The notes: generated from the sequence alone by a model not told the origin. A stretch of DNA of 45,265 nucleotides from Deltaproteobacteria bacterium (GCA_016219225.1 JACRBX010000320.1:1-45265), one strand, 5' to 3'. Shown: positions 19,511-44,811, counted from the first letter of the stretch. Numbers and translations are program-made.

Positions 19511-19525
19511 GTGCGTCCGAAAAAA

Positions 19526-19650: not shown

Positions 19651-19713
19651 TTTCGAATCATGAGGGATTTATTTTTACCTTACTTCGACATTCATTATTC
19701 GATATTCGATATT
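19651..19713 (-). repeat. ~64-bp repeat, copy A (left flank of methyltransferase)
   Basis: Read on the minus strand this starts AATATCGAATATCGAATAAT and continues through AAATCCC and TCATGATTCGAA. It matches copy B (20493-20556, plus strand) at about 55 of 64 positions with one gap. The two copies are inverted relative to each other and flank the methyltransferase gene. Confidence 0.7.
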
Positions 19714-19728
19714 TTCCATTGTCCGTCG

Positions 19729-20409
19729 TTAGGGCCTGGGGGACATCTCGCAAAAAAGACTGGAGCCGTCCACTTCGGTGATCCCGGGTTCCAGCCCCAA
19801 GGAACGGGCCAGATCGATAAAATCCTTTGGTCCGAAAGTCGAAGCCTTAAAACCATCCCGGCACATAATCACCCCGTTGCCGGTCCGCTCCTCATCGATC
19901 TCGCCGAGCAGCCCCTCATGGGCCTGGGCCCGGAACCAATCCAGCCGTTCGGACCAGAAGGCTCCGGCGTAGCTGGAAAAAAGCACCGATCCTCCCTGGC
20001 GAGTGACCCGCAATCCCTCTTGCATCAAGGCCAAGGGGTTGCCCTTAAAGGCCGATATCCCGTTCTGGATGCAGACCACCAGGTCGAAGAAACCTGTGCG
20101 AAACCCAAGGTGAAAGGCGTCCATGGCCGCCACTCCAAAAGGCGGATGGCCCTGGTAGTTTTCAAGACACAGGGCCAGGCTGGCTCGGGAAGTATCAATA
20201 CCGAAGACCCGTTGGGATTTCGTGCTCAATCGTTCCAGGACGCGGCCATACCCGCAGCCCAGCTCGAGCACACAATCGCCAGGGCCTACCCGGCTCAATA
20301 TAAAATCGATCTCGGCCTGAAGATATTGCCGCACCCGGGGCGAAGCGATTTCATAGACCCGCCTGAGTCTTTCGGCCGAGAGCTTTTCCTGATAATAGGC
20401 CCAGGCCAT
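19729..20409 (-). CDS. Class I SAM-dependent methyltransferase
   Basis: 226 residues from ATG 20407-20409; a GTG four codons earlier is possible but has AAAGG directly against it. The SAM-binding motif I is VLELGCGYGRVLERL, followed by an acidic residue ending strand 2 (VFGIDTS), motif II AMDAFHLGF with FFDLVVCIQNG, and a post-motif RVTRQGGSVLFSS. The substrate is unknown. It is cytoplasmic, with no membrane segments. It interrupts the hut gene order between the cyclodeaminase and hutI and is flanked by inverted copies of a 64-bp repeat, so it may be an insertion rather than a hut enzyme. Confidence 0.8.
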   Translation of the reverse strand: MAWAYYQEKLSAERLRRVYEIASPRVRQYLQAEIDFILSRVGPGDCVLELGCGYGRVLERLSTKSQRVFGIDTSRASLALCLENYQGHPPFGVAAMDAFHLGFRTGFFDLVVCIQNGISAFKGNPLALMQEGLRVTRQGGSVLFSSYAGAFWSERLDWFRAQAHEGLLGEIDEERTGNGVIMCRDGFKASTFGPKDFIDLARSLGLEPGITEVDGSSLFCEMSPRP

Positions 20410-20492
20410 CCGCGGAATCACCCTTTCTTTCAGCTTTCTGCTAATTCCTCATGCCCGTTGGAGCAACACGGACAAGAAAAATTCGAATGTCG

Positions 20493-20556
20493 AATGCCGA
20501 ATGTCGAATAATGAATATCGAAGGAAGGCAAAAACAAATCCCTTCATGATTCGAAG
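20493..20556 (+). repeat. ~64-bp repeat, copy B (right flank of methyltransferase)
   Basis: Starts AATGCCGAATGTCGAATAAT and ends CCCTTCATGATTCGAAG. Additional TCGAAT/CGATATTCGATATTC units extend it on both sides (20481-20573). It ends just before the cyclodeaminase stop. See copy A for the comparison. Confidence 0.7.
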
Positions 20557-20578
20557 TTCGATATTCGATATTCTTTTT

Positions 20579-21208
20579 TTAAGCCAGCTTTTCCTCTACA
20601 ACTCCTTCCAACTTCATGACTTCTTTTAGTATCCGCTGCAAGGTCCTTTCGGTCTCGGCCAGGAGTTTCATGGCTTGTGATTGATCTTTCAGTCCCTTGG
20701 CGTTAATCCGCACATTATAGGCGGCACCGAAGGCCCCTGCCCGGACCAGTTGTATGGCCACGCCGGCATCAGTCAGACAATTGGGATTGCCAAGCTCCAG
20801 GGCCTGACGGGCCAATTCCGGCAATGGAGATAAAGTCTTTAAGGTTTTCAGAGGGACTTGGGCCGCCCCATAGATGGCCGCCTGGATGGCCGTGAGCCTC
20901 TTGGCCTGTTGTTCCTTGTTCTCTTTCGGCAGCCGGTAAGCCTCCGTAACCCGGTTATAGGCCTCGGTATCGGCATCCACCAATCGAAGGAGTTCGGTCG
21001 CTATGGCCTCGGCCTCATCCCTTACTTTGGCCATGGCCGGCCAGGCCTTTTCCTGATTTTTACGGCCTACGGTCAGGTTCCCGACCATGGCGCACAAGGC
21101 AGCGGCCAAGGCTCCGGCCAGAGCGGCCACACTTCCGCCTCCGGGTGCCGGTTTCTCACTGGCCAACTCCTGAACAAAATCCCGGATGGACAATTCACCC
21201 AGGCTCAT
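20579..21208 (-). CDS. Formimidoyltetrahydrofolate cyclodeaminase
   Basis: Converts 5-formimino-THF to 5,10-methenyl-THF and ammonia. 209 residues, the single-domain (FchA/FTCD-C) form. The motifs LASEKPAPGGGSVAALAGAL (about 14-33) and the long helical bundle are typical. ATG 21206-21208 overlaps the formiminotransferase stop as ATGA. The one-carbon unit from histidine thus enters the folate pool. Confidence 0.93.
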   Translation of the reverse strand: MSLGELSIRDFVQELASEKPAPGGGSVAALAGALAAALCAMVGNLTVGRKNQEKAWPAMAKVRDEAEAIATELLRLVDADTEAYNRVTEAYRLPKENKEQQAKRLTAIQAAIYGAAQVPLKTLKTLSPLPELARQALELGNPNCLTDAGVAIQLVRAGAFGAAYNVRINAKGLKDQSQAMKLLAETERTLQRILKEVMKLEGVVEEKLA

Positions 21209-22143
21209 AAGGTTTCCTTTCCCGTCTTTCCCTCGTCTTCCTCCATCTCCAGCAAGCGCAGTTCCACCACCTGGTTGGGGTCGAAGCCGCTGAGTTGCAG
21301 ATAATAGGCCGCGCTGTCCAGCAAAGCCGCGGCCGGCATCATCCCGTCGACCTCGGTTTCAACCAGATTGACCCCCCAGCGGCGGGCCTCCATACGGATC
21401 AGTTCCACCACCCGGTAAAGGGCGTTCTTTTCGAAATCAACGATGTTCAAAGAGACCTGAACCAGACCCCGGTCCTTAAGGGCCAGTCCGATCCCTTTGA
21501 CATGACAAAGGCCGCCGGAGGAGGCCCGCACGGCCCTGGCGATTTTCCGGGCCACTTCGATATCAGTGGTGCCCAGGTTGACGTTGAAGGCGATCAAAAA
21601 CTTGCGGGCCCCGATGACCGTGGCTCCGGCCGTGGGATGCAGTCTCGGTTCCCCCACATCGGGTCGGCGGGCCGGATCGGCAACGGCGGTTTTGAGTCCC
21701 TCATACTGGCCCTGGCGGATCCTTTCCAACTGGCGGCGTTCCGGCCTGATGGCCGCCTCCTCGTAAAAATAAACCGGGATGCCGGTTTCCTGATAATACC
21801 TCTCCCCGAAATCGCGGGCCAGGGTTATGCAGTCCTCCATGGTGATATTTCTGAGGGGCACAAAGGGGATTACATCCACGGCGCCGATGCGGGGATGACC
21901 GCCCTGGTGGGTCTCCAAATCGATCCGTTCCACGGCGATTTTAGCCGCTTCGATTAAGGCCTCCTGGATCGGTTCGGGCTGGCCAACCAGAGTAACCACC
22001 AGGCGGTTATGGTCCGGGTCGGCCCGGTGGTCGAAAAGGGAACAACCCCGGCGATTTCGAAAGGGGGCCACCAGGGCCTCGATCACTTCATGGCGGCGGC
22101 CTTCGCTGAAATTGGGGACACATTCGATAAGCGGACCGGACAT
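21205..22143 (-). CDS. Glutamate formimidoyltransferase
   Basis: Transfers the formimino group of N-formimino-L-glutamate to THF, releasing glutamate. 312 residues. Opening motif LIECVPNFSEGRRHEVIEAL and later HPRIGAVDVIPFVPL are diagnostic, as is FLIAFNVNLGTTDIEVA. In animals the two FTCD activities are fused; here they are separate but translationally coupled genes. GGAGG lies upstream of the ATG, 13 bases after hutU. Confidence 0.95.
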   Translation of the reverse strand: MSGPLIECVPNFSEGRRHEVIEALVAPFRNRRGCSLFDHRADPDHNRLVVTLVGQPEPIQEALIEAAKIAVERIDLETHQGGHPRIGAVDVIPFVPLRNITMEDCITLARDFGERYYQETGIPVYFYEEAAIRPERRQLERIRQGQYEGLKTAVADPARRPDVGEPRLHPTAGATVIGARKFLIAFNVNLGTTDIEVARKIARAVRASSGGLCHVKGIGLALKDRGLVQVSLNIVDFEKNALYRVVELIRMEARRWGVNLVETEVDGMMPAAALLDSAAYYLQLSGFDPNQVVELRLLEMEEDEGKTGKETL

Positions 22144-22155
22144 GGGGGTGGCCTC

Positions 22156-23868
22156 CTAAGGGAAGAGATTGAGCATGGGGATCTTTACCCCCCGTTCGGC
22201 GGCCACCTCGACGGCCCGGGGGTAACCGGCGTCGGCGTGGCGGATGATGCCCGTTCCCGGATCATTGCGCAGGACGGTGGTCACCCGGAGTTCGGCCTCG
22301 GGTGTGCCGTCGGCTACGGTCACCTGGCCGGCATGCAGGGCATAGCCGATGCCCACCCCGCCACCGTCATGGAAGGAAACCCAACTCGCCCCTGAGGCCA
22401 CGTTGACCATGCAATTGAGGATGGCCCAATCAGCCACGGTATCCGAGCCGTCCCGCATGGCTTCGGTCTCCCGGAAGGGGGAGGCCACGGAGCCACAATC
22501 CAGATGGTCCCGGCCGATGACCAGCGGGGCCTTGACCGCGCCGGAGCGGACCAGGTCATTGAAGATTTTGCCGGCTCGGTCCCGTTCCCCGTAGCCCAGC
22601 CAGCAGATGCGGGCTGGAAGCCCCATGTGGGCCACCTTCTCGCCGGCCAGCGTCAGCCAGCGGACCATCCGCTTTTTTTCAGGGAAGGCCTCGATCAAGG
22701 CCCGGTCGGTGACGGCGATGTCCTGGGGGTCGCCTGAAAGGGCCGCCCAGCGGAAGGGCCCCTCCCCTTCACAGAACAGGGGCCGCACGTAAGCCGGAAC
22801 AAACCCCGGGTAGTCCATGGCATTAGACACCCCGCGTTTCAGGGCCTGCCCCCGCAGGTTGTTGCCGTAGTCAAAGGCAATGGCCCCCCGGGCCTTCATA
22901 TCGAGAATGGCCCGGCAGTGAACGGCCATAGAATCCATGGCCAGTTCGACATACTTTTTGGGGTCATCCTTCCGCAGCCGGAAGGCTTCTTTGTACGGGA
23001 TGCCGTGAGGTACGTAGCCGTTCAATTCATCGTGAGCCGAGGTCTGGTCGGTGACTACGTCGGGGATGAATCCGATTTCAACCATCTTTGGCAGGACTTC
23101 GGCAGCATTTCCCAAAAGGCCGATGGATTTGGGGACCTTGGCCTGGGCCGCTTCCCGGGCCATTTTTATGGCCTCATCCAGGTCCTCGGTCATAACATCT
23201 AAATAACGGGTATCCAAGCGGCGCTGGATCCGGGCCCGGTCCACCTCGACAATCAAGGCCACGCCTTCATTCATGGTCACGGACAGCGGCTGGGCCCCGC
23301 CCATGCCGCCTAATCCGGCGGTGACCACGATCTTTCCCTTAAGGGAAGCCTGGTAATTCAGATCGGCCAGGGCGGCAAAGGTTTCATAGGTGCCCTGCAG
23401 GATCCCCTGGGTGCCGATGTAAATCCAGGAACCGGCGGTCATCTGACCGAACATGATCAGGCCTTTCCGGTCCAGCTCGTGGAAATGGTCCCAGTTGGCC
23501 CAATGGGGCACGATGTTGGCATTGGCGATGAGCACCCGGGGGCAGTGGACGTGGGTTTTGAGGATGCCCACCGGTTTGCCCGATCCGACCAGCAGGGTCT
23601 CGTCATTTTCCAGCACGAGCAGGGAGCGGACCAGGGCATCGAAGCAAGGCCAGTTGCGGGCGGCCTTGCCGTACCCGCCGTAGACGATGAGTTCATCGGG
23701 TTTTTCCCCGGTTTGGGGGTCCAGGTTGTTGCAGAGCATGCGCAGGGCCGCTTCTTGTTGCCATCCCTTGCAATGAAGCTCCAGACCCCGGGGGGCCTTT
23801 ACCGGCCGGGGTTGGCCGAGGCCGATCTGTAATTCCTTAAGCAGTCTTTCTTGGGCCTGAGTTCCCAT
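22156..23868 (-). CDS. hutU: Urocanate hydratase
   Basis: Hydrates urocanate to imidazolonepropionate using tightly bound NAD+. 570 residues, full length. Seen motifs: [14 protein letters not shown], the NAD loop [12 protein letters not shown] (186-197), YGNNLRGQA, and a cysteine in [13 protein letters not shown] near 410 where the family has its active cysteine. ATG 23866-23868 has GGGAGGT six bases upstream. First gene of the minus-strand hut operon, divergent from the GntR regulator. Confidence 0.97.
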
Positions 23869-31315: not shown

Positions 31316-31732
31316 TCATCGGTCATCTCCCCGCAGGAGTACAGGCTTGATATCAACGATTGGCGTCCCGTCGATGGCCTCCACCGGCGCAACCTTCAAC
31401 CTGTTCCCGGAGACCTCCAAGACCGAAACCCGATGAAGCCCTACCGGGTTGGGACGATGGGGCGACCGGGTCGCAAACACGCCTCTTAACGGTGCCTCGG
31501 CCTTCCCGCGCGGGTGCACCTGAAGCAGGTCACGTCGGGCGCGATGAAACCAGGTTAGAACGATAAGCTCGTCGCCGGCCCTGATGCCGAGAAGTCCTTG
31601 GGCTACTCGATCCGTGAGCTCCAGCCAGGCTTCGGGAGCGCCTTCGTCACCCTGGAGGGGTGCCGCCTCGAGACTGGTCAACCCGGAGCGTATGATCCCG
31701 ATTGGTTCGATGGTATAGCTCATTTCGATCAT
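31316..31732 (-). CDS. trmO: tRNA (N6-threonylcarbamoyladenosine37-N6)-methyltransferase TrmO
   Basis: 138 residues, UPF0066/TsaA family, which uses SAM to methylate t6A37 of tRNA(Thr). Motifs: YTIEPIGIIRSGLTS, LIVLTWFHRARRD, and GVFATRSPHRPNPVGLHRV, then VEAIDGTPIVDIKP. Shorter than E. coli TrmO, lacking the C-terminal extension, as in many archaeal and anaerobe versions. The ATG shares one base with the stop of the upstream sigma-54 regulator (TAATG), so the two are cotranscribed. An ATG three codons later is an alternative start. Confidence 0.88.
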   Translation of the reverse strand: MIEMSYTIEPIGIIRSGLTSLEAAPLQGDEGAPEAWLELTDRVAQGLLGIRAGDELIVLTWFHRARRDLLQVHPRGKAEAPLRGVFATRSPHRPNPVGLHRVSVLEVSGNRLKVAPVEAIDGTPIVDIKPVLLRGDDR

Positions 31733-34700
31733 TATCCTTTACTCAGGCCGAGTTTCTTCATTCGGAAAAACAGGGTGGTCGGCTTCAAACCGAGTATGGC
31801 GGCGGCCCCGTTTCTGCCGCTGACTTTCCAGTGGGTGGCATTCAGGACCTTTTCCAGGTAGTCACGCTCCATCTCGGCCAGGGGCATCAGCCCGGTCGGC
31901 CCGGTTAAATCCCTCTGGGCCGGGACATGGTCCAGACCGGAAAAGCCGATCCGAGGGCCGTCGGACAAAATGACCGCCCTTTCGATGAAATGTTTTAATT
32001 CCCGCACATTGCCCGGCCAATGATATTCGACCAGCTTTTTTAATTCTTCCCTGGGGATCCGTTTGACCTCTTTACCCATCTGTTGGCAGAACTGGTTAAG
32101 AAAATGCCGGGCCAGCAGGGGGATGTCTTCCTGACGTTCTCTTAAAGGGGGAACCCGGATGGGAAATACATTTAACCGATAATAGAGGTCTTCCCGGAAG
32201 CTTCCTTCTTCGACCTGATTGACCAGATCCTTATTGGTGGCGGCCACCACCCGGAAATCGGACTTTACCTGTCGGCTGCTTCCCAGCCGTTCAAAGGTGC
32301 CTTCCTGCAGGACCCTCAATAACTTTACCTGAACCTGGGCGGAGAGGTCTCCGATTTCATCCAGAAAAATGGTCCCGTGGTCCGCCAGTTCAAAACGCCC
32401 CCTGTGTCTCCCATAAGCCCCGGTAAAGGCCCCTTTCTCATGACCGAATAGTTCACTGGCCACCAAATCCGGGGGAAGGGTCACCAGGTTGACCGGAATG
32501 AAAGGCCCGTCTTTTCTCCCGCTCATATTATGAATGGCCTTGGCCACCAGCTCTTTCCCCACGCCGGTTTCACCCAAAATTAAAACCGAACTATCCGTGG
32601 GGGCCACCTGGCGTATCTGTTCGACAACCCGGCCCAGCGGGTCCGAATGTCCGATGAGGGCCTCAACCGGATTGGCAATCCCCATCTCGCGCCGGTAGAA
32701 GGTGGTCTCGTCCTCCAGGCGATCCCGGCGCACCTTCATCTCATCGTACATTCGGATGTTGGAGAGGCCTACGGCGATCTGGTTGCTGATGAGTCGTACC
32801 AGCGGAAGGTTGTCGGCCGGAAAGGGCTTTAGCCCGAGACGGTTGTCCAGGTAGAGGTACCCGTGGGTTTGGTCGGCCAGTCGGACCGGCAGACAGATGA
32901 GGGAATGAATACCCGCCTCCCGGAGGGAGGTCTCGGAAAGATGGAATTCCGGGCTTAGCTCCGGCAGAACCGCTTCCCGGCCCAGCCGCGCCACTTCCCT
33001 TACGACTCCCAGGAGACCGGTGACCTGCTCCTGCCGGAGGATGGCAGGGTCCAGATTCCGGCTGGCGGTCAGTGTGAGTTCCCCTCCCGGGCCATGGGTG
33101 AAAAAAGCGCCACGCATGGCCATCGTCAAATCCAGGGCCAGATTGATGCCCCGTTCCAGAAAAGAAGACAGGTCCTGCAGGGTTCCGAGGGATTCGTTGA
33201 TTTCGATGATCCGGTCGATCATCACTTCCATCTTTTGCTCCTGGGGCATGATCGCCAGCAGATCTTTGGGAAAGAGGCTCTGGTCTACATTGGAAAAGAA
33301 CCGCCAGGCCTTTCCCAGAAAAGTCTGGGCCGGTTTCATCTCGCCCTTCTTGAAGTAGAGATTCCCCAGTGCGATCCGCGTGCGGGCCAGTTCAATTTCC
33401 GCCCCCGATTGATTGAGATATTTTTCGCTCTTTTTTAAGTCGGCCAGGACCCGGCTCAGGGGTTGTTGTTTTTCCAAAAGGCGCAAGGCCCGATAGCGAT
33501 AGGACACTCCTTTCATGTAAATATCGTCCCAGTTGAGCATCCTTTTTATTTCATTCCGGTAATTCCATTCGGCATGGACAAAGCCCCTCGACTCCAGCAC
33601 CTCCAGCAACTCGAAGTTCCAGGCGCCGTTCTGATGCAACCAGCCCACAAACCGGGAATGGTCCACCGCCCGTTTCAGGTGTTCAAAAGCACCGTCATAG
33701 TCTCCCCGCATGCAGCGGATGTAGCCTTTACAGGCCTCTACCGGCCAGAGGATATAATGCCCTACCTGTTCCGGTGGAAGGGCGGACAGACGGTCCAGAT
33801 ACCCCTCGGCTTCGGTCGTCTTCCGCAGTTCAAAAAGGGCGATAAGGGTCATCAAATCCGAAAAAATGGCCATCTGCGGCAGGCGGAGCAGTTCGGCCTT
33901 GGCCCGGACGGTATCGATCATACCCATGCCCCGGGCAATGCGACCGCAGCGCACATAGCATAAGCCCACCCGGGCCGTGGCCCTCAAGGTGGCCTCGTCA
34001 TCGCCGAATTCTTCCAGGTCCTCGACCACTTCTTCGTAGCGGCGGACCACTTCGGCGAATTTTCCCTTCCAGTGGAGAAATTCACTCATCATCAAAGTGG
34101 CCATTTTCAACATACGGGCCTCTCCGACCTTTTCGGCCAGTTTCCAGAAATCGCTCATATAGCGGAAGGCCTTCTTGTTCTGACCGGCCGCCTGAAGATC
34201 GAAGCCCAGGGCCAGTTTGATCTTGGGCAGGTAGTCCCAGCGCTGGAAACGTTTAGCCGCCTTCTCGGCCCGGCTGAGCAAGGCCACCTGTTCCGGGATG
34301 GTCATCAGGTGTTTGGCGGAGGAAATTTTTCCGAGGACGCTGTCTAAAAAATCCCCGGCGTTTTCTTCGGTTACCGGCTGACCCTGAAATTTTTTCAGGA
34401 GTACCTCGTAGTAAGCCAGGGCCTGGTCTTTCTGCCCGGTAAGACACAGGATGTCGGCGGCCTTTTTTATCAACTGCCCGCCTTGGGCGACATCTCCAAG
34501 TTTGTGGTACAATTCGGCCAAAATCAGAGTCTTGGTTTCTCCTTCCTCCAGGGTGCGGGTATAATATTCGATCAGGCGCTTGACGGCCGGCCGGCTTTCT
34601 TCATCGACTGCCTCTTCCCGGACCCGATTAGTCAGTCGATCCAGGTTGGGGAAATAAATCCCTTTGGGAGTTCCTCTTTTTCGGAACACCAGTCCTTTCT

Positions 34701-34863
34701 TTTGCAGGCCCTCCAGGACATTCAATACCGGCAGGGCAGGAGCGCCGGTCAGGGCGCACAGGGTATCAATGGAAACTGGGGGTTGGGTGTGAAGGAGATA
34801 TAAAAGGAGGTCTTTTTCAACAGCATTCCAGTTTTCTATCCGTATTGTGTCCAATTCTATCAT
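31732..34863 (-). CDS. Sigma-54-dependent activator with wHTH, TPR, GAF, AAA+ and Fis domains
   Basis: 1043 residues from ATG 34861-34863; a TTG four codons earlier is possible. Residues 15-75 look like a winged helix (LLLYLLHTQPPVSIDTLCAL). Residues 80-590 are helical TPR-like repeats resembling LuxR/STAND sensor arms. A GAF domain spans about 590-725 (SLICLPVRLADQTHGYLYLD). The AAA+ domain has Walker A GETGVGKE near 762 and an intact GAFTGA loop near 807-812, required to contact sigma-54. The C-terminus has a Fis-type HTH (GRNGAAAILGLKPTTLFFRM). No receiver domain. It is divergent from the liv-corrinoid operon, its likely target. Confidence 0.92.
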   Translation of the reverse strand: MIELDTIRIENWNAVEKDLLLYLLHTQPPVSIDTLCALTGAPALPVLNVLEGLQKKGLVFRKRGTPKGIYFPNLDRLTNRVREEAVDEESRPAVKRLIEYYTRTLEEGETKTLILAELYHKLGDVAQGGQLIKKAADILCLTGQKDQALAYYEVLLKKFQGQPVTEENAGDFLDSVLGKISSAKHLMTIPEQVALLSRAEKAAKRFQRWDYLPKIKLALGFDLQAAGQNKKAFRYMSDFWKLAEKVGEARMLKMATLMMSEFLHWKGKFAEVVRRYEEVVEDLEEFGDDEATLRATARVGLCYVRCGRIARGMGMIDTVRAKAELLRLPQMAIFSDLMTLIALFELRKTTEAEGYLDRLSALPPEQVGHYILWPVEACKGYIRCMRGDYDGAFEHLKRAVDHSRFVGWLHQNGAWNFELLEVLESRGFVHAEWNYRNEIKRMLNWDDIYMKGVSYRYRALRLLEKQQPLSRVLADLKKSEKYLNQSGAEIELARTRIALGNLYFKKGEMKPAQTFLGKAWRFFSNVDQSLFPKDLLAIMPQEQKMEVMIDRIIEINESLGTLQDLSSFLERGINLALDLTMAMRGAFFTHGPGGELTLTASRNLDPAILRQEQVTGLLGVVREVARLGREAVLPELSPEFHLSETSLREAGIHSLICLPVRLADQTHGYLYLDNRLGLKPFPADNLPLVRLISNQIAVGLSNIRMYDEMKVRRDRLEDETTFYRREMGIANPVEALIGHSDPLGRVVEQIRQVAPTDSSVLILGETGVGKELVAKAIHNMSGRKDGPFIPVNLVTLPPDLVASELFGHEKGAFTGAYGRHRGRFELADHGTIFLDEIGDLSAQVQVKLLRVLQEGTFERLGSSRQVKSDFRVVAATNKDLVNQVEEGSFREDLYYRLNVFPIRVPPLRERQEDIPLLARHFLNQFCQQMGKEVKRIPREELKKLVEYHWPGNVRELKHFIERAVILSDGPRIGFSGLDHVPAQRDLTGPTGLMPLAEMERDYLEKVLNATHWKVSGRNGAAAILGLKPTTLFFRMKKLGLSKG

Positions 34864-34901
34864 CTTTTTTTCCAATCCGATAAATCAAATCAAATAAAAA
34901 A

Positions 34902-34934
34902 TACAATATACTGTAAAAATTATATTATATTGTA
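34902..34934. promoter_or_regulatory. Candidate activator binding site (9-bp inverted repeat)
   Basis: TACAATATA (34902-34910) and TATATTGTA (34926-34934) are perfect inverted arms with a 15-base spacer, in the AT-rich divergent gap. Its centre lies about 105 bases upstream of the start site expected from the -24/-12 element, a usual distance for an enhancer of a sigma-54 activator. Confidence 0.5.
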
Positions 34935-35059: not shown

Positions 35060-35932
35060 ATGACTCTTTTCTCCCAAATCCTCCAATATGCCATTTCCGG
35101 AATAACCGGCGGCAGCATCTATGCCGTTCTCGGGATCTGCTGGAGCGTGGTCTATCTACTCACCCGGGTGCGGCCCGTCACCACCGGCGAGTTCGTGATG
35201 CTGGGCGGGATGTGGACCTGGGGCTTTCATGGTGCGGGTCTGGGGCTGTTGCCGGCTTCTCTGCTGGCGGTGGCCGCCACCGTCGCTATCGCCGTCCTCA
35301 TGGAACGAACGGCCATACGACCGGTGAGACAGCCTTCGGAAATGGTCTATATGATGCTGACCATCGCCCTGGCTTCCATCCTCAAAGGCCTGATACTGCT
35401 CCAATGGGGCTCGGAAACCCGGAAAATAGAGCCCATGTTCGGCAATACCCCCCTTCATCTGCTGGGAGCCACCCTGACCCCTCAGGGTATCGTGGTCTTC
35501 GCCTTCCTGGGGATCGTCACCGCCGGACTCTCCTGGTTTCTTAACTATACCTTGTTCGGTAAGGCGCTCCGGGCTTCGGCCGTCAACCCTACCGGGGCCA
35601 AACTGATGGGCATTGACATCAGCCGTTTCCGGCTTTTCTGTTTCGGGCTGGCCGGAGGATTGGGGGCCCTGACCGGCATTATCACCGCCCCGATCACCTT
35701 TACGGGTTATGAAATCGGGCTGTTAAATGGATTGAAGGGGCTGGTCGCCGCCATTGTGGGCGGTTGGACGATCATCGGTACGGTCCTGGCCGCTCTGGCC
35801 CTGGGGTTGCTGGAAGGATTTTGCGCCGGTTTCATCTCTGCCAGCTTAAAGGATGTATTTTCCCTTCTGGTAATGGTGCTTTTCCTGGTTCTCAGCACCT
35901 ACCGGCTGCGTTTTCGGAGAAAGGTCCAATGA
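35060..35932 (+). CDS. livH: LIV-type ABC transporter permease LivH (second system)
   Basis: 290 residues from ATG 35060 (MTLFSQILQYAISGITGGSI). An upstream ATG at 34997 would add 21 polar residues and lies in the candidate promoter. LivH motifs: GSIYAVLGICWSVVYLLTRV, and GLKGLVAAIVGGWTIIGTVL near 235-255. The loop PTGAKLMGIDISRFRLF is the ATPase contact. No clear ribosome site. First gene of a seven-gene operon with ATGA overlaps. Confidence 0.9.
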   Translation: MTLFSQILQYAISGITGGSIYAVLGICWSVVYLLTRVRPVTTGEFVMLGGMWTWGFHGAGLGLLPASLLAVAATVAIAVLMERTAIRPVRQPSEMVYMMLTIALASILKGLILLQWGSETRKIEPMFGNTPLHLLGATLTPQGIVVFAFLGIVTAGLSWFLNYTLFGKALRASAVNPTGAKLMGIDISRFRLFCFGLAGGLGALTGIITAPITFTGYEIGLLNGLKGLVAAIVGGWTIIGTVLAALALGLLEGFCAGFISASLKDVFSLLVMVLFLVLSTYRLRFRRKVQ

Positions 35933-36921
35933 CCCCGGCTTCACGATTTCCTCTTCCTTTCCTGGTCTTTGCCCTGGCTGTTTTCCTGCTGCCCCTTTTG
36001 GTATCCGGCTCCTACGTCATCGGGGTCATGTGTTTTGTCGCTATTTACGGAGCCTTGGCTCTGGGGAAAGGCGTGCTCCTGGAACAGGCCGGAATTTTCT
36101 CCCTGGCCCATCCCACCTGGTTCGGACTCGGTGCCTACGTGACGGGTATCGCTGCCGTGAAAGGTGTCCCTCCCCTGGGGGCCATCATTCTGGCCGCTGT
36201 GTTCGTAGCCTGCGTTGCCTTTATTTTAGGCGCACCGTTGCTTAGACTCAAAGGATATTACCTGGCCTGTGCCACTTTCTCACTCTTGTTGATCGTCGAG
36301 ATCATCATCGCCAACCTGGGATCGCTGACCGGCGGCCATGACGGTCTCATGGGCATCCCGCCGCTGTCCGTCTGGGGTCTGGCCCTGGAGGGGGATCGCC
36401 CTTTTTATTTCCTGTCCTGGGGGCTCTGTCTGGGAACCTACTGGTTTCTTAACAACCTGATGCACTCCCGGATGGGCCGGGCCATCATCTCCTTCAACGA
36501 CAGTGAAACGGCCAGCCGTTGCCTGGGGATCAACGTGGCGGCTTATAAACTCCGGTTGTTCATCATCACCGCCATTATGGCCAGTCTGGCGGGCAGTCTC
36601 TTCTGTTTCTGGATTCGTTATATCATGCCGGCACTTTTCGGGTTTCCGCTGCTGGTGGAGTTGATCACCATGATCATCATCGGTGGCGGGAAAACCCTTT
36701 ACGGCCCTCTACTCGGGAGTTTGGTAGTCATGTGGCTCCGGGAGCTGATCCATACCTACCTGGGGAAAGTGTTGCCGGTCATGACGGCCGAAGTGGACGC
36801 CCTCTTTTTCGGGATCATCATCGTGGTTATTCTTATTTTTATGCCCGGCGGGCTGGCCGGGTGGCTGGAACGGTTGAGCCCGGCCGGAAGGAGGTCCCGT
36901 GCACGGATCAACCCCTCCTGA
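35929..36921 (+). CDS. livM: LIV-type ABC transporter permease LivM (second system)
   Basis: 330 residues from ATG 35929, overlapping the livH stop as ATGA; the frame is open 55 codons further upstream, but inside livH. The LivM motif is LGKGVLLEQAGIFSLAHPTW (about 45-64); the usual SLGHAAF is SLAHPTWFG here. Loop DSETASRCLGINVAAYKLRL. Eight or nine membrane segments, ending in a basic tail. Confidence 0.9.
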   Translation: MTPASRFPLPFLVFALAVFLLPLLVSGSYVIGVMCFVAIYGALALGKGVLLEQAGIFSLAHPTWFGLGAYVTGIAAVKGVPPLGAIILAAVFVACVAFILGAPLLRLKGYYLACATFSLLLIVEIIIANLGSLTGGHDGLMGIPPLSVWGLALEGDRPFYFLSWGLCLGTYWFLNNLMHSRMGRAIISFNDSETASRCLGINVAAYKLRLFIITAIMASLAGSLFCFWIRYIMPALFGFPLLVELITMIIIGGGKTLYGPLLGSLVVMWLRELIHTYLGKVLPVMTAEVDALFFGIIIVVILIFMPGGLAGWLERLSPAGRRSRARINPS

Positions 36922-37690
36922 AGGCTGGTTGGCGATAAAGGAAATCAGCCGGCACTTTGGCGGTATTTTAGCCTTGAACCGGGTTTCCTTCCAATTGGAT
37001 CGGGGCGGTATTACTTCCTTGATCGGGCCTAACGGGGCCGGAAAAACGACTTTAATTAATGTCATCGCCGGTCTCTATCCGGCGGACCGCGGTCGAATCC
37101 ATTTTCAGGGAGAAAATATCGCCGGTCTGGCGGCCCATAGTATTGCCGCCCGGGGCATAGGCCGGACCTTTCAACTGGAAGAGCTCTTCGGCAGCCTCTC
37201 TGTCCTGGAAAATGTCATGGTGGGCGGCCATGTGCGCAGCCGCTCCGGCATGGTGTCCTGCGGCCTGGCTTTGCCTTCGGCCCGGAAAGAGGAAAAACAG
37301 GCAAGGGAGGCCGCCCTGGCCAATCTGCAGTTGATCGGCCTGGAACACAAGGCCGAGGACCCGATTGCCAGACTGCCCCTGGGTGAACGAAAACTGGTTG
37401 GGGTGGCCCGGGCGCTGAATATGGACCCTCGATTTCTCATGCTGGATGAACCGGTAGGCGGTCTGGCGGCCCACGAGATCAGTAAACTGGTTGATCTGAT
37501 TTATAAGCTCCAGTCTGAAGGGCTGACCATCTTCATCGTGGAGCACAATATGCCTTTTGTCATGTCTCTTTCGGAAAAAATCCTGGTGCTTGACGGCGGT
37601 TCCCTGATCGCCGAAGGACTTCCGGAGGAAATCAGGCGGAACGAAGCGGTGATCAATGCCTATCTGGGCGAGGAGGTGACCGTTGCCTGA
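36899..37690 (+). CDS. livG: LIV-type ABC transporter ATPase LivG (second system)
   Basis: 263 residues from GTG 36899, with AAGGAGG five bases before it, inside the livM end (23-base overlap). Walker A GPNGAGKTT, Walker B FLMLDEPVGGL, H loop FIVEHNMPFV. The signature reads LPLGERKLVGVARAL instead of LSxGxQ. Confidence 0.92.
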   Translation: MHGSTPPEGWLAIKEISRHFGGILALNRVSFQLDRGGITSLIGPNGAGKTTLINVIAGLYPADRGRIHFQGENIAGLAAHSIAARGIGRTFQLEELFGSLSVLENVMVGGHVRSRSGMVSCGLALPSARKEEKQAREAALANLQLIGLEHKAEDPIARLPLGERKLVGVARALNMDPRFLMLDEPVGGLAAHEISKLVDLIYKLQSEGLTIFIVEHNMPFVMSLSEKILVLDGGSLIAEGLPEEIRRNEAVINAYLGEEVTVA

Positions 37691-38459
37691 ACGGCCGGTT
37701 TCCGGAACAATATCGGGTTCCCCGGAAAACGCCGGGGTGGATCGACTCCGGCTGGAAAAGGTTTCCACCTTTTACGGGGAAGCCCAGGTCTTGAAAGAGA
37801 TTTCCCTGACCGCCCGGGCGAGACAGATCGTGGCTATCCTGGGGAGCAACGGCGCCGGGAAAACCACCCTGCTTAAAACCCTTACGGGATTGCTGGTACC
37901 CCGGTCCGGGAGAATCCTTTTTGAGGGCCGGCCCATTGAAGGTCTGCCGGCTCATCGGGTCATTGCCCAGGGGATCGCCAGCGTTCCCGAGGGGCGGGAA
38001 CTATTCGGCTCCCTGAGCGTGATGGATAATCTGCTGATCGGTACTTACTCCCTGACCGCCGAAAGAAGGAAAGAAGCTCTGGCCGATCGCCTGAAAATGG
38101 TCTTCACCCTTTTTCCCATCCTGCAGGAACGGGTCAGGCAGAAAGCCGAAACCCTATCCGGCGGCCAACAGCAGATGCTGGCCATCGGGAGAGCGCTGAT
38201 GGCCATGCCGAAGCTGCTGGCTCTGGATGAACCTTCGCTGGGGCTTTCGCCCCTGCTGGTGGCGGAGATGATGCGGGTCCTGAAAGAAATTGCCCGGCAA
38301 GGGGATATCTCCCTGTTGCTGGTGGAACAGAATGCCCGGGCGGCCTTGAAGATTGCCGACTATGTTTATGTCCTGGAAAGGGGGGAGTTGGTATTGAGCG
38401 GGACGACCCTGGAAGTGATTGAGAGTCCGGTCATCCAATCCGCCTATCTGGGCGGATAA
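37683..38459 (+). CDS. livF: LIV-type ABC transporter ATPase LivF (second system)
   Basis: 258 residues from TTG 37683, overlapping livG by 8 bases, with GAGGAGG upstream. An 18-residue N-terminal tail precedes the ATPase fold (LRLEKVSTFYGEAQVLKEIS). Walker A GSNGAGKTT, signature TLSGGQQQMLAIGRAL, Walker B LLALDEPSLGLSP, H loop LVEQNARAALK. Confidence 0.93.
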   Translation: MPERPVSGTISGSPENAGVDRLRLEKVSTFYGEAQVLKEISLTARARQIVAILGSNGAGKTTLLKTLTGLLVPRSGRILFEGRPIEGLPAHRVIAQGIASVPEGRELFGSLSVMDNLLIGTYSLTAERRKEALADRLKMVFTLFPILQERVRQKAETLSGGQQQMLAIGRALMAMPKLLALDEPSLGLSPLLVAEMMRVLKEIARQGDISLLLVEQNARAALKIADYVYVLERGELVLSGTTLEVIESPVIQSAYLGG

Positions 38460-38501
38460 TAGCTGAACAAATTCGGATAACCAAAATTAAGGAGGAGCAT
38501 T

Positions 38502-39692
38502 ATGAAACGCATGTTTGGTACAATCTTGGTTTTGTTGTTGGCAACGGTCGGCTTCCTGCCCGGCTACAGCCAGGCGGAGAAAGCCCCCTACCTCATCGGC
38601 GGCACTCTGGATATGACCGGCCGTCAGTCCAACCTGGGAATCGGCGGAAAACGGGGCATGGAGATCGCCGTGGATACGATCAATGCCGCCGGCGGTGTAA
38701 ACGGTCGGCAACTGAAGGTGATTTATTATGATACGGAAAGCGAACCGGCCAAAGCGGTCATTCACACTAAACGATTGATCGAAGTGGACAAAGTTGTCCT
38801 GCTCGGCGGTTATAGTTCTTCCGGCGCCGCCATGGCAGTGCTGCAGACCATCGAATCCAGCAAAACCCCGATGATCGCCGCCACCCCCATAGACAAGCTC
38901 TGGATCCCCACCAAGAAGTGGGTCTTCAACGTCGTGCCCCGGCAGCGGGAGGCCTCCATCCCCGTGTTGTTGGATAACCTGCTGCAGCGGGGGGCCAAGA
39001 AAATCGCCTACTTGTACATCGACACGGCCTACGGCCTGGCCGGAAAGGAAGTCTTCGATTGGGCGGTCAAAGAGCTGAAAATCACCCCGGCCGTGGTAGA
39101 GAAATACGCCCCGGGAAGTACCGATATGAGTCCCCAGATCACGCACCTTAAAGCCGCCGGAGTGGACGGACTGCTGATTACCGGAAACGTCCCCGATACG
39201 GTGGTTGTGATCAAGAACGCCCGGGACCAGGGGTTCAACCATCCCATCGTCAGCGATTATGCCATTGTCAGCCCCGAGTTCATCGACCTGGCCGGGAAAT
39301 ACGCTGAAGGGATCGTCAGCACCTCCCTTAAAACCCTGATCGCCCAGGACCTGCCGGCCAAAGACGTCCAGAAAAAAGTGGCCATGGATTTGTATACCAA
39401 ATATACCAGGCTCCACGGGGCCTTCAGCCTCTATGCCGGCCACCCCTGGGATCAGATCTATTTGACGACCGAAGCCTTGAAAAAAGTGGACCCCAAGCTG
39501 GATCCCGCCGTTCCTGCGGATTTGATTAAAATCCGGGAACAGCTTCGGGACAACCTGGAAAAAATTAAGGGCTTTGTCGGTCAAAATGGCGTCTTCAATT
39601 ATTCGCCGGAAAATCATAACGGCCTGGGGCCTAAATGTTATGTGCCGGTCGTTATCGAGAAAGCTGCCTGGAAACTTTATAAGGGAAAATGA
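38502..39692 (+). CDS. LIV-type periplasmic substrate-binding protein (second system)
   Basis: 396 residues, Peripla_BP_6 family. The signal peptide is MKRMFGTILVLLLATVGFLP up to the SQA-EKAPY region. Typical motifs: IGGTLDMTGRQSNLGIGGKR, INAAGGVNGRQLKVIYYDTE, and the hinge IAYLYIDTAYGL. AAGGAGGAG precedes the ATG. The ligand is not readable; being last of the transporter genes and just before a corrinoid protein and a methyltransferase, it probably binds a methylated or methoxylated compound. That is inference from context only. Confidence 0.88.
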   Translation: MKRMFGTILVLLLATVGFLPGYSQAEKAPYLIGGTLDMTGRQSNLGIGGKRGMEIAVDTINAAGGVNGRQLKVIYYDTESEPAKAVIHTKRLIEVDKVVLLGGYSSSGAAMAVLQTIESSKTPMIAATPIDKLWIPTKKWVFNVVPRQREASIPVLLDNLLQRGAKKIAYLYIDTAYGLAGKEVFDWAVKELKITPAVVEKYAPGSTDMSPQITHLKAAGVDGLLITGNVPDTVVVIKNARDQGFNHPIVSDYAIVSPEFIDLAGKYAEGIVSTSLKTLIAQDLPAKDVQKKVAMDLYTKYTRLHGAFSLYAGHPWDQIYLTTEALKKVDPKLDPAVPADLIKIREQLRDNLEKIKGFVGQNGVFNYSPENHNGLGPKCYVPVVIEKAAWKLYKGK

Positions 39693-39718
39693 AAAATAGC
39701 TGATTAAGGAGAAATTTA

Positions 39719-40360
39719 ATGGGTAAAAAACGGTTAATAGATCTCATGGCCGACCTGAAGGAAGGGGAGGTATATGCCCTGGTCGAAGAATTGATCAACA
39801 GCGGGACCGACCCCCTGAAAATCCTGGACGATGCACGCTCGGCCATGGAGATCGTGGGCAAGCGTTTTGAAACCGAGGAATACTTTATCCCCGACCTCGT
39901 CCTGGCCGGGGAGATCCTTAAGGTCATCTCGGACAGAGTCAAGCCCTTTCTTAAAACAGAAGACGATTTACAAAAAAAGGGCAAGGTCTTGATCGGCACC
40001 GTGGCCGGAGACATTCACGACATCGGAAAAGATATCGTCACCTTTATGTTGGATGTCGGCGGCTTTGAGGTTCTTGATCTCGGCATCAATGTGCCGGTTC
40101 CGGTCTTTGTTGAAAAAATAAAAGAATTCCAACCGAGGGTAGTCGGTTTGAGCGGTTTTCTCACCCTGGCCTTCGATTCAATGAAGAAAACCGTGGAGGC
40201 CATAGAAGAGGCCGGGCTGCGGGATCAGATAAAGATCATGATCGGCGGCGGTCAGATGGATGATGAGGTCAGGAAATACGCCCGGGCCGATGCCTATGGG
40301 AAGGACGCCGCTGCCGCCGTAAATCTCTGTAAGCAATGGATCGGAGGACAAGCATCATGA
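39719..40360 (+). CDS. Methyl-accepting corrinoid protein (MtbC/MtmC type)
   Basis: 213 residues, the normal length of corrinoid carriers of methylotrophic systems. A helical cap domain (1-85) is followed by the B12-binding Rossmann domain. The base-off motif is GDIHDIGKDIV with the axial histidine at 100, then GLSGFLTL (S-x-L, about 143-150) and IMIGGGQMD (174-182). It carries a methyl group on cobalt between two methyltransferases. AAGGAG lies upstream of ATG 39719. The UroD-family gene follows with an ATGA overlap; no separate substrate methyltransferase of MttB/MtaB type is in the operon. Confidence 0.94.
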   Translation: MGKKRLIDLMADLKEGEVYALVEELINSGTDPLKILDDARSAMEIVGKRFETEEYFIPDLVLAGEILKVISDRVKPFLKTEDDLQKKGKVLIGTVAGDIHDIGKDIVTFMLDVGGFEVLDLGINVPVPVFVEKIKEFQPRVVGLSGFLTLAFDSMKKTVEAIEEAGLRDQIKIMIGGGQMDDEVRKYARADAYGKDAAAAVNLCKQWIGGQAS

Positions 40361-41604
40361 AAACCCCGGAAGAACTTTATCAGCAACGGGAAAAGCGGGT
40401 CCAGGATGCCATCGCCCTGCGCGTCCCGGACCGGGTGCCTATTCTGGTCCTTTTTGCTTTTTTCCCGGCCAAGTACTGCGGGATGACCATTCAGGAATTG
40501 ATGTACGACCCGGAAAAGATTTTTCAGGCCGAGTGGAAGACCATGATCGATTTTGAGCCGGATATGGACAATAATCCATTCGGGATCAGGCTACTAGGCC
40601 CCCTCCTGGAAACTCTGGATTTCAAGCCCTTGAAATGGCCCGGTCACGGGGTGGCCGCCAACCACACCTACCAGTATATTGAGGGGGAGTACATGAAGGC
40701 GGAGGAATACGATCATTTCCTTCTGGACCCCACTGACTTCATGATCCGGAGGTTCTGGCCCCGCATCATGGGTGGTTTGAGCGGGTTGCAGCAGCTTCCC
40801 CCCCTCCACAACATTATCAGCTATTACCTGGGGATGCCTATGGGCTTTCGTGGATTTACCCAGCCGGAGGTCAAAGAGGCACTGGAAACCCTGGTGAAGG
40901 CCGGTGAAAAATCGTTGGAGATCGCCGCCTACTCCATGCGGTTTAGCAAGGAGGCCCGGGAGGCGGGTTTCCCCATGCAGTATGGGGCATTGTGTCAAGC
41001 CCCCTTCGACACCTTGACCGATTTCTTCCGGGGTATGAAGGGCGCCATGCTGGACCTGTATCGGAGGCCCGAGAAGGTTATTCAAGCCTGCGAGAAGCTG
41101 TTACCCTTTATGATCGAGATGGCCTTAAACGGCACCCGGGCCAGCGGAAACCCCCGGGTCTTTATCCCCATCCACTGGGGATTGGATAACTTCATGTCCC
41201 GGGAGCAGTTCAACCGGTTCTTCTGGCCCACCCTCCGGGACCTGATGGTAACCCTGATCCATGAAGGATTGAACCCCTGCCCCTTGTGGGAAGGCAACTG
41301 CACTACCCGGCTGGAGACCATCAAGGACATCCCTGCCGGTAAGGCCTGCTATGCCTTTGAAGCCACCGATATGGTCAAGGCCAAGGAAATCCTGGGCGGC
41401 ACGGTCTGCATTCGGGGAAATGTTCCGCTGTCCATCATAGCTACCGGCACCCCGGACCAGGTCCGGGCCTGTTGCAAAAAATTGATCGATACGGTGGCCC
41501 AGGGAGGCGGCTATATCATGGACACCTCCACCGGCCTGGACGACGCCAAACCGGAAAATGTGAAGGCCTTGATTGATTTTACCCGGGAATACGGGGTGTA
41601 TTAG
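40357..41604 (+). CDS. Uroporphyrinogen decarboxylase-family methyltransferase (MtaA/CmuA-like)
   Basis: 415 residues from ATG 40357, which overlaps the corrinoid gene stop (ATGA). UroD/MtaA-type TIM barrel: RVQDAIALRVPDRVPILVLF at the start, GLDNFMSREQFNRFFWPTLR in the second half, and GTVCIRGNVPLSIIATGTPD near the end. In MtaA-type enzymes a zinc site HxC...C activates the methyl acceptor; by eye the equivalent positions here read PLWEGNC and MDTSTGL, so those ligands seem replaced. Its length and features exclude haem biosynthetic HemE. It probably demethylates the imported substrate or passes the methyl group on; direction is unknown. Confidence 0.85.
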   Translation: MKTPEELYQQREKRVQDAIALRVPDRVPILVLFAFFPAKYCGMTIQELMYDPEKIFQAEWKTMIDFEPDMDNNPFGIRLLGPLLETLDFKPLKWPGHGVAANHTYQYIEGEYMKAEEYDHFLLDPTDFMIRRFWPRIMGGLSGLQQLPPLHNIISYYLGMPMGFRGFTQPEVKEALETLVKAGEKSLEIAAYSMRFSKEAREAGFPMQYGALCQAPFDTLTDFFRGMKGAMLDLYRRPEKVIQACEKLLPFMIEMALNGTRASGNPRVFIPIHWGLDNFMSREQFNRFFWPTLRDLMVTLIHEGLNPCPLWEGNCTTRLETIKDIPAGKACYAFEATDMVKAKEILGGTVCIRGNVPLSIIATGTPDQVRACCKKLIDTVAQGGGYIMDTSTGLDDAKPENVKALIDFTREYGVY

Positions 41605-41820
41605 ATTCGAAAAGAGCGCAATCGACGATGCCGCCCGGATGAAACCGTTTATCCTGGCCGTGGATCTCATGCTGGGCCGGGATTCCACGGCCAGGTCCTA
41701 TACGAATCACAACCGAAAGCTGAAACAGGAATTTAAGACTCTCTCCGTGAGTTCAAAACCCGATTCTATTTTTCGAAACAACCCATATCGTTACTGGCCT
41801 TATCTGTTCCCGGAAGAAAA
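41605..41820. other. Gap without a supportable gene
   Basis: The gap between the methyltransferase gene and the PAS regulator (41605-41916) has a GC-rich first third and an AT-rich rest. A frame is open across it (…DDAARMKPFILAVDLMLGRD…), but it has no recognisable motif and no ribosome site. The right part holds the promoter listed separately. Confidence 0.4.
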
Positions 41821-41916: not shown

Positions 41917-43569
41917 GTGAAAGAAACCCCCAAAACAAAACAGCAACGCCTTTTGGAAATAGAAAGACTTCGCAAGAAGCCGGAGGCTACGGAGCGCCGG
42001 ATACAAGACCGGACCGATCAGAGGCAATCGGAAGAGGCGCTGAAAATTTCTGAAACACGTTACCGGCGTCTCTTCGAAACAGCCCAGGACGGCATATTAA
42101 TCCTCGATGCCGAGACAGGGCAAATTTCGGATGTTAATCCATTTCTGGTAGAAATTCTGGGTTATTCCTATGAGGATTTCTTAGGGAAAAAACTTTGGGA
42201 AATCGGTCCCTTTAAAAATATGGAAGCCTCGAAAGCCGCCTTTTCGGAATTGCAGAGCGAAGGATATGTCCGGTTCGAGGATTTACCCCTGGAGACGAAA
42301 GAGGGACACCCGATTGCCGTGGAATTTGTCAGTAATGTCTATCTGGTCAATCATCAAAAAGTGATTCAGTGTAATATCCGCGATATCACCGAACGGAAAC
42401 GTCTGGCCGAGGCCTTGCAAAAAGCCCATAACGAACTGGAACGACGGGTGGAAGAACGGACCATCGAACTTCGGACCGCCAACGAACAACTGGGGCATGA
42501 GATTGAAGAACATCGCCTGTCCGAGGAATCCCTGCGCACGGCCCTTTTTGAAATCAAGACCTTGAAAGACCAATTAGAGACCGAGAATATCTACTTCCGT
42601 CAACAGTCCAAAATGAAACATCAATTCGACCATATTCTCGGTCAAAGCGATGGCATTAAATATGTTCTTTACCGGGCGGAACAGGTCGCTCCTCAGAACA
42701 CAACGGTTCTCATCCTCGGTGAGACCGGTACGGGAAAGGAACTGATCGCCGCCGTCATCCACAGCCTGAGCCCCCGCCAGGATCGGCCGCTGATCACCGT
42801 CAACTGTGCCGCCCTGCCGGCCAATTTAATAGAGAGCGAATTGTTCGGCCGGGAGAAAGGGGCCTTTACCGGGGCCGATACCCGCCAGGTAGGCCGATTC
42901 GAGGTCGCCCACGGCTCAACCCTTTGCTTAGATGAGATAGGGGAACTACCGCTGGAGTTGCAGGCCAAACTGCTCCGGGTGATCCAGCATAACGAGTTTG
43001 AGCGCCTGGGCTCATCCCAGACCATTAAAGTCGACGTGCGAATCGTGGCCACGACCAACCGAAATCTTGAAGAGGAGGTCCGCAAGGGCCGGTTTCGGCA
43101 GGACCTTTACTATCGGCTCAACGTCTTCCCCATCACGGTCCCTCCCTTACGGCAGCGCCGGGAAGACATACCGATCCTGGTCCAGGCATTCACGGAACGA
43201 TATGCCAGAAAATTAGGGAAGCAGATTACCTCCATCCAGAAGGAAACGATGAAGGCCCTCCAGGATTACCCCTGGCCCGGGAACATCCGGGAGTTGGAAA
43301 GTATCATTGAACGGGCCGTGATCTTGTGCCCCGGGCCGGTATTGCAATTGGCGGATAAACTGGAGATTCCATCCCTTCCCTTTCCGGCCGGCATGAATAC
43401 CCTGGAAGAGGTGGAGCGAAACCAAATCGTTAAGACCCTATCGGAAACCCGCTGGCGCATCGAGGGAAAAGACGGGGCCGCGGTCATCCTGGGCCTCCAC
43501 CCGAGCACCTTGAGGGCCAGGATGCATAAGCTCGGGATAGTTCGTCCGGAGATCAAAGAGTCGGATTAA
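41917..43569 (+). CDS. PAS-domain sigma-54-dependent activator
   Basis: 550 residues from GTG 41917 (CAGGGA six bases upstream). A basic coiled start (1-45) leads to a PAS domain at about 44-160 ([20 protein letters not shown], then ITERKRL). A coiled coil spans 160-230. The AAA+ domain has Walker A GETGTGKE (268-275), GAFTGA (315-320) and Walker [10 protein letters not shown]. The C-terminal Fis HTH reads [20 protein letters not shown]. No receiver and no membrane segment, so it senses a cytoplasmic ligand or redox state. It may activate the preceding operon together with, or instead of, the large TPR-GAF activator. Confidence 0.93.
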
Positions 43570-43647: not shown

Positions 43648-44811
43648 TCAAAGAAGCTCCGTTCCTTCATTCATCACATCGATAAACTTTCGATACGCGT
43701 ATACCCGGTTTCTATTCCTGCCCGTGATTTCCCGGACCATCCCGGCATCCTCCAGAGCCTTCAGGGTCTTGTTGACCGTGTTTGGAACCAGCCCGGTAGA
43801 TTGACAAAGTCTGGCGGCATCCGCTAACGGCCTTTGCATAAGACTCTGGTGGACCATCAGGGCTGATCCTGCGATGCGACCCAGACCACGCACGGCAACC
43901 CTGTCTTCTTCGGCCAACCGGATCAGTCTCTTGGCTGTTTCTGCTGATTGCTCCGCCGTTAAAAGGATCGCTTTGGCAAAAAAAGAAAGCCAGCCTTCCC
44001 AATCGTTTTCAAGCCTGGTTTTCTGAAGCAGGTCGTAATATTCATCCCGGTGGTTTTTGAAATAAAGACTCAGGTAGAGCAGGGGTTCATGCAGGATAGC
44101 GTCATTACAAAGTATGAGCGTAATCAGCAGTCTGCCAAGCCGTCCATTCCCATCCAGAAAGGGATGTATGGTCTCGAACTGGGCGTGGGTCAGCGCTGCT
44201 TTCTCCAGGGTACTAATTTTCCCCCGTTCATTATTGTAGAAAAGCTCCAACTCTCCCATGCACCCCTGAACAGCATCCGGTGGAGGAGGTACATAGACTG
44301 CGTTGCCCGGGCGTGTTCCGCCAATCCAGTTCTGGCTCCGCCTGAATTCTCCGGGATCTTTTCTGCTGCCCCGGCCGCTTTTTAAAAGAATGGCATGGAT
44401 TTCCTTCAATAAGCGGTTGGAAAGGGGGAAGCCTGATCGGATTTTGTCCAAACCATAGGTCAGAGCTGCCACATAGCACGAAACCTCTTCTACGTCATCT
44501 ATAGGAACGCCCGGCACGGCTTCCATCTCAAAAAGAAGGAGGTCCGACAGGGACGACTGAGTTCCTTCGATCTGTGAGGATAAAACCGCTTCTTTTCTGA
44601 TATACATGTACAGAAGCAGGTTCGTATCGGGCAGATAAGCAGAGGCGCTATCCAGCCGCCCCAGGGCGATAAGAGCCCGATCCAACTCATCCCGAAGCTC
44701 CGGTGATATTTTCAGTGGAGGATCAGGAGGCAACGGATCGGGTATGAATGCCCGTACCGGCTCCCCCGCCGTGCTTACGGTCCGGTATCGCCCCATTGAC
44801 CTTCTTTTCAT
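43648..44811 (-). CDS. Fic-family AMP-transferase with C-terminal winged helix
   Basis: 387 residues. A DUF4172-like N-terminal part carries the inhibitory helix motif SSQIEGT (78-84; [S/T]xxxE[G/N]). The catalytic motif HPFLDGNGRLGR is at 216-227, complete. The beta-hairpin region near 172 reads YVPPPP. The C-terminal 70 residues form a winged helix (SLMQRPLADAARLCQSTGLV, then NTVNKTLKALEDAGMV). This is the class II Fic layout: AMPylation of a target is blocked by the internal Glu. GGAGG precedes the ATG. It may regulate its own promoter, given the inverted repeat upstream. Confidence 0.93.
   Translation of the reverse strand: MKRRSMGRYRTVSTAGEPVRAFIPDPLPPDPPLKISPELRDELDRALIALGRLDSASAYLPDTNLLLYMYIRKEAVLSSQIEGTQSSLSDLLLFEMEAVPGVPIDDVEEVSCYVAALTYGLDKIRSGFPLSNRLLKEIHAILLKSGRGSRKDPGEFRRSQNWIGGTRPGNAVYVPPPPDAVQGCMGELELFYNNERGKISTLEKAALTHAQFETIHPFLDGNGRLGRLLITLILCNDAILHEPLLYLSLYFKNHRDEYYDLLQKTRLENDWEGWLSFFAKAILLTAEQSAETAKRLIRLAEEDRVAVRGLGRIAGSALMVHQSLMQRPLADAARLCQSTGLVPNTVNKTLKALEDAGMVREITGRNRNRVYAYRKFIDVMNEGTELL

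Follow-up and report, generated by a model that had tools for sequence, protein, structure and literature searches.

Results

An operon that joins a LIV-type importer to corrinoid methyltransferase components

The window analyzed here is the whole of a 45,265-nucleotide contig (C320) from a Deltaproteobacteria bacterium draft genome (G000; 5.93 Mb, 98.9% complete), and groundwater Deltaproteobacteria metagenome-assembled genomes (MAGs) are among the closest genomes searched. Genomes, contigs, and loci are referred to by our G, C, and L identifiers. The plus strand at 35060-41604 holds seven open reading frames (ORFs) in the order LivH, LivM, LivG, LivF, substrate-binding protein (SBP), corrinoid protein, and UroD-like protein. 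Neighboring frames overlap or are separated by short gaps throughout. An initial annotation had proposed this layout as an import-and-demethylation operon, and all seven ORFs are present with Pfam assignments above cut-off (Table 1). By Pfam, the two permeases, two ATPases, and one Peripla_BP_6 protein constitute a LIV (HAAT) ABC importer.

Table 1. Features of the operon and its upstream region.
Feature	Coordinates	Strand	Basis
Sigma-54 activator with TPR, GAF, AAA+, Fis-type HTH; probable operon regulator	31732..34875	-	Pfam; divergent partner kept in L152, L162
Inverted repeat TACAATATACTGTA, possible activator site in the divergent intergenic region	34902..34915	.	Palindrome shared with L152
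Weak promoter-like element (-24/-12 type) before livH, TGGCAT-N5-TTGAA	34998..35013	+	Aligned element in L093
LivH-type permease	35060..35932	+	PF02653
LivM-type permease	35929..36921	+	PF02653
LivG-type ATPase	36899..37690	+	PF00005 + PF12399
LivF-type ATPase	37683..38459	+	PF00005
Periplasmic SBP, nearest cluster B-III aromatic-acid binders, Pro204 for carboxylate-clamp Arg	38502..39692	+	PF13458, profile search, literature
Corrinoid protein (methyl carrier)	39719..40360	+	PF02607 + PF02310; 4jgi 3.8e-52
Putative UroD-superfamily substrate:corrinoid methyltransferase (MTI)	40336..41604	+	PF01208; CdmB 9rui 1.5e-70; predicted UroD-like TIM barrel
Methyltransferase II (MTII) remnant, coding for the C-terminal 36 residues of a pterin-binding MTII	41618..41725	+	~75% identity to C-terminus of intact MTII after MTI in L093/L152

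The UroD-type protein belongs to a branch of substrate methyltransferases

The last gene encodes a 422-residue protein of the ~420-residue UroD branch of substrate-demethylating methyltransferases (methyltransferase I, MTI). CdmB from Acetobacterium dehalogenans (PDB 9rui) is its only strong solved homolog, matched at 8e-43 with the single sequence and at 1.5e-70 (241 bits) with a profile of 62 homologs. The next solved match is HemE (4e-6, 29 bits), and MtaA-type structures were not detected in the same sequence-profile search. Biochemical work has established CdmB as a methyltransferase I, and its authors group it with MtvB, OdmB, VdmB, and MtoB, the demethylases of methoxylated aromatics. 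The initial label of MtaA/CmuA-like does not suit the protein, which scores 26.2 bits against TIGR01463 (mtaA_cmuA; cut-off 235.4) and falls far short of the MtaA and HemE models as well. MtaA, CmuA, and Mlp belong to the same superfamily, but they have ~340 residues and a His-Cys-Cys zinc site. This site is missing from the longer MTI: the HxCG stretch reads LWEGN, with Leu-Trp-Glu319 in place of His-x-Cys, and the later Cys position is variable. The low model score, the lack of the zinc site, and the CdmB match rule out an MtaA/CmuA identity. Carboxylates or non-ligands have been described in O-type UroD enzymes at the positions of the S-type zinc ligands.

The AlphaFold2 model of MTI is a UroD-like TIM barrel (pLDDT 95.6, pTM 0.92) with UroD and the methyltransferase 4ay7 as the top Foldseek matches. 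CdmB is not listed in this fold search, and 9rui is probably newer than the fold library. His280, Glu319, and Arg325 are invariant in the 62 homologs and Asp345 is present in 60 of them; His280, Glu319, and Asp345 are predicted to lie at the C-terminal ends of barrel strands. The profile alignment places Trp, Gln, Leu, and Asn at these four positions in CdmB, a haloalkane enzyme, and the changes at residues 280, 319, and 345 are those expected if these side chains serve ether cleavage. Acetobacterium O-demethylases have the zinc motif E-x14-E-x20-H, which is absent from the MTI sequence. The suggestion in the initial annotation that a single UroD-family protein demethylates the substrate agrees with membership in the MTI branch and with the joint conservation of the corrinoid protein and MTI, and we infer that this protein is the substrate methyltransferase of the operon.

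The corrinoid proteins cluster by genome

The corrinoid protein consists of B12-binding_2 and B12-binding domains and contains the motif D98-x-H100-D101-x-G103, which is invariant in eight homologs; 4jgi is its best solved relative. At the DNA level, the window gene resembles its paralogs at 39734-40342 only, a stretch within the corrinoid-protein gene. The paralogous and related loci compared were L111, L113, L114, L093, L096, and L124. In the trees, the corrinoid proteins group by genome, with the four from this genome in one clade (99/96) and those from G004/G003 in another (100/100). Their MTI partners instead group with their operon counterparts in other genomes (100/100), and identity among the MTIs of one genome can be as low as 37%. 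A tree that forces the corrinoid proteins of operon-mates together is rejected with an AU p = 4e-9, a value that is indicative because the group was chosen after the identities were seen. The difference between genome-wise corrinoid clusters and operon-wise MTI pairs could have arisen by gene conversion or by repeated replacement. This concerted evolution perhaps reflects a need for all of the corrinoid proteins to work with a single MTII and a common set of activators.

The operon has lost its MTII gene

The orthologous operons at L152 and L134 run on into a gene for a pterin-binding MTII, and an MTII gene also follows the corrinoid protein-MTI pairs at L133 and L137 that are without this LIV set. 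A feature that the earlier annotation did not record begins 13 nt past the UroD stop codon, where the C-terminal end of MTII is still encoded and the remainder of the gene is gone. This remnant indicates that the absence of MTII from the operon is a secondary loss and not new chemistry. A second MTII reduced to its C-terminal part lies behind an MTI on G004:C327 (L124, about 9511-9850), which makes an assembly error less likely as the source of the window truncation, and the truncation is more likely real.

The genome encodes the remaining components at other loci. An intact MTII is located on G000:C71, next to a corrinoid protein that shares ~82% identity with that of the operon. The initial annotation called for a genome search for a RACE-type activator, which recovered five RACE-type reductive activators, all outside the operon. 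ACS and an AcsE-like protein are encoded on C162, and BamA/Oah, the ring-opening hydrolase of benzoyl-CoA degradation, scores over its curated cut-off. MttB was not found in the genome. The sharing of a corrinoid protein and an MTII between several MTIs has been described in acetogens.

Other genes of this type are present in these genomes. G000:C327 (L115:1002-3632) encodes a ~880-residue protein that fuses UroD, pterin-binding, and B12-binding domains (MTI/MTII/corrinoid protein-like) and is followed by a RACE activator, and G004:C351 carries a comparably long frame that has pterin and B12 domains. An MtaA-like UroD protein at G000:C159:4600-5586 (L119, L003) has an in-frame TGA at the last zinc-ligand Cys of MtaA (FAPG-U-DMPYD). 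It is probably a selenocysteine methyltransferase because G004 (94%) and G023 (86%) have also retained the TGA. The window contains selA at 10080-11480.

The importer and methyltransferase genes are conserved as a set

Four other genomes contain orthologous LivHMGF-SBP-(corrinoid protein)-UroD operons, at 56-92% identity. A single-protein query of the genome contigs gave no confirmed match, and the homolog set comes from an alignment-based query. In L152/L093, from another genus of the family, the LIV and SBP genes are 82-92% identical, the corrinoid protein 68%, and MTI 87%. The L134 operon is 67-71% identical, L162 is 56-64% identical, and L149 is 57-70% identical and is without the corrinoid protein. 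The recurrence of the gene order at these loci shows that the set is not a chance arrangement. The neighborhood survey proposed in the initial annotation thus finds the importer with its SBP, the corrinoid protein, and MTI conserved together, with L149 as the exception for the corrinoid protein. At L141, an MTI of the same clade (61% identity) follows a LIV set that is not orthologous (28-46%) after a gap of 62 nt; therefore, importers have joined this MTI more than once. A corrinoid protein is encoded within 400 nt of MTI in the window and at 45 of 75 related loci. MTI-family members at L172, L174, L176, L177, and L184, in Burkholderiaceae and marine Rhodospirillaceae MAGs, have no corrinoid protein nearby.

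The binding protein resembles receptors for aromatic compounds

The top seven solved relatives of the SBP in a profile search are Rhodopseudomonas palustris-type ligand-binding receptors and IadK2, the auxin-binding protein of Variovorax and a member of the cluster B-III proteins for aromatics. CouP/RPA1789, solved with coumarate and ferulate, is among these seven; its ligands are coumarate, caffeate, and ferulate, the last of which is methoxylated. The ligand information on these relatives covers CouP and IadK2. The structure prediction for the SBP is poor (pLDDT 45 from 5 sequences). A methoxylated aromatic is the most probable substrate, although our confidence in this class is only slightly better than even; BamA/Oah and ACS elsewhere in the genome also speak for it. 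The initial annotation had listed a methoxylated aromatic, a quaternary amine, and a methyl thioether; the first fits best, and the other two are disfavored, the amine by the absence of MttB from the genome, which rejects MttB-type amine demethylation, and the thioether by the lack of the zinc site in MTI.

Regulation and neighboring genes

The divergent sigma-54 activator upstream of livH is 81% identical in L152, and a divergent activator is also present in L162, where it is split in two ORFs (46/34%). The same 14-nt palindrome (TACAATATATTGTA) is located at 3860 in L152 and was not found in L162 or L149. The weak promoter-like element aligns with TGGTAT-N5-TTGAA in L093, and L162 has a better -24/-12 match before livH, CGGCAT-N5-TTGCA. 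A strict sigma-54 consensus is absent upstream of livH in the window. These elements are suggestive only of sigma-54 control of the operon.

A second sigma-54 activator with a PAS domain (41917-43569) lies on the same strand directly downstream of the operon region, and a Fic-domain protein, possibly an AMP-transferase, is encoded at 43648-44811. The window contains a second LIV importer at 13493-23868 beside urocanase, formiminotransferase/cyclodeaminase, and amidohydrolase genes, which probably serves uptake and breakdown of histidine or imidazole compounds.

Discussion

The gene content suggests a pathway in which the SBP and LivHMGF would import a methylated substrate, most likely an O-methyl aromatic. 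MTI would position the substrate above the corrinoid Co(I), whose attack on the methyl group would give methyl-Co(III). The MTII encoded in trans on G000:C71 may then pass the methyl group to tetrahydrofolate and the Wood-Ljungdahl pathway, RACE-type activators from other loci would re-reduce the cobalt, and the ring would enter the benzoyl-CoA pathway. As a whole, an import-and-demethylation operon for a methoxylated aromatic is the interpretation that we favor, with a confidence somewhat above even.

Several observations weigh against this interpretation. It is a prediction from sequences and a modeled structure, and the UroD-type protein is grouped with MtvB/OdmB/MtoB through the published placement of CdmB. 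At the position of the carboxylate-binding Arg (CouP Arg197, IadK2 Arg199), the window SBP has Pro204 and all four orthologs have Pro; the CouP residue was matched to this column by counting along a printed alignment. A simple aromatic acid is therefore not secured as the ligand. LIV neighbors are common in this genome because it holds ~56 LivG-type hits. A same-strand LIV set occurs within 8 kb at 8 of the 40 related loci with room for one, which is only moderately above the ~7% expected from the LivG-type density of this genome alone (P = 0.006, a rough estimate). The adjacent corrinoid protein is absent at 30 of the 75 related MTI genes, including those of marine Rhodospirillaceae.

The strongest alternative retains the same machinery for another O- or N-methyl substrate, such as a non-aromatic methyl ether, and not for one of the methoxylated aromatic acids or phenols already known. 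We regard this as possible but tentative. An SBP without the carboxylate-clamp Arg and an MTI whose nearest Moorella relative (L209 from Moorella mulderi, itself a candidate MtvB relative) is just 44% identical fit such a substrate, but the nearest solved SBPs are aromatic binders and the genome encodes a benzoyl-CoA-type hydrolase. It is more speculative still, and in our view unlikely, that the importer and the UroD-type MTI co-evolved as a dedicated module for a methyl compound used by no known corrinoid system (not a simple methoxybenzoate), with the corrinoid proteins kept alike by gene conversion so that one MTII serves several MTIs.

The importer could also carry other cargo, for example amino acids, and merely share a transcript with the methyltransferase pair. 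The very many LIV systems in the genome, the adjoining of another LIV set in the window to histidine-degradation genes, and the common occurrence of corrinoid protein-MTI pairs without LIV genes are all consistent with this explanation. It is nonetheless improbable, because five genomes, with identities as low as 56%, pair the same five LIV genes with this MTI, and L141 shows an independent joining of LIV genes to the same MTI clade. A methyl thioether or methyl-selenide demethylase of the MtsA/Mlp kind is very improbable. S-methyltransferases do occur in the UroD superfamily, but a thioether fits poorly because MTI has no His-Cys-Cys zinc site, and the mtaA_cmuA score is far under its cut-off. 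Least probable is a CdmB-like haloalkane (chloromethane-type) dehalogenase: CdmB is the closest solved protein, but the conserved His280/Glu319/Arg325/Asp345 differ from its Trp/Gln/Leu/Asn, which rejects a chloromethane dehalogenase identity, and a small gas makes an ATP-driven importer unnecessary.

The favored reading, an operon for uptake and demethylation of a methoxylated aromatic, places the locus beside several characterized systems. The initial annotation knew of no described pathway with this gene set, but a UroD-type MTI with a corrinoid protein is the arrangement of Mtv, Odm, Mto, and Cdm. The Mtv/Odm/Vdm/Mto systems of Moorella, Acetobacterium, Methermicoccus, and Archaeoglobus are alike in a UroD-superfamily MTI, a small corrinoid protein, a pterin-binding MTII, and a RACE-type activator, and their MTII and corrinoid protein may be common to several MTIs. 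Unlike these systems, the window operon has lost its local MTII and contains no activator, and archaeal Mto clusters carry MFS transporters whereas this operon carries an ABC importer. CdmBCA of A. dehalogenans shares the barrel architecture and corrinoid partner but acts on haloalkanes and not on methoxylated aromatics. CouPSTU of R. palustris is an ABC uptake system with an SBP related to that of the window; its operon serves coumarate metabolism, and the CouP paper reports no corrinoid demethylase with it. No paper on a LIV importer coupled to a corrinoid demethylase was found in the open-licence literature searched. The enzyme type, which removes methyl groups from lignin-like methoxy-aromatics, is thus already known, and the fixed pairing with a dedicated LIV importer appears to be the new part.

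Few importers are known for corrinoid O-demethylases. An operon with one importer and one MTI offers a direct handle on the substrate because the SBP ligand and the MTI methyl donor should agree. The locus is also a clean case of modular methyl metabolism: in a single anaerobic aromatic degrader, several MTIs have diverged, the corrinoid proteins are closely alike, and the only intact stand-alone MTII located is that on C71.

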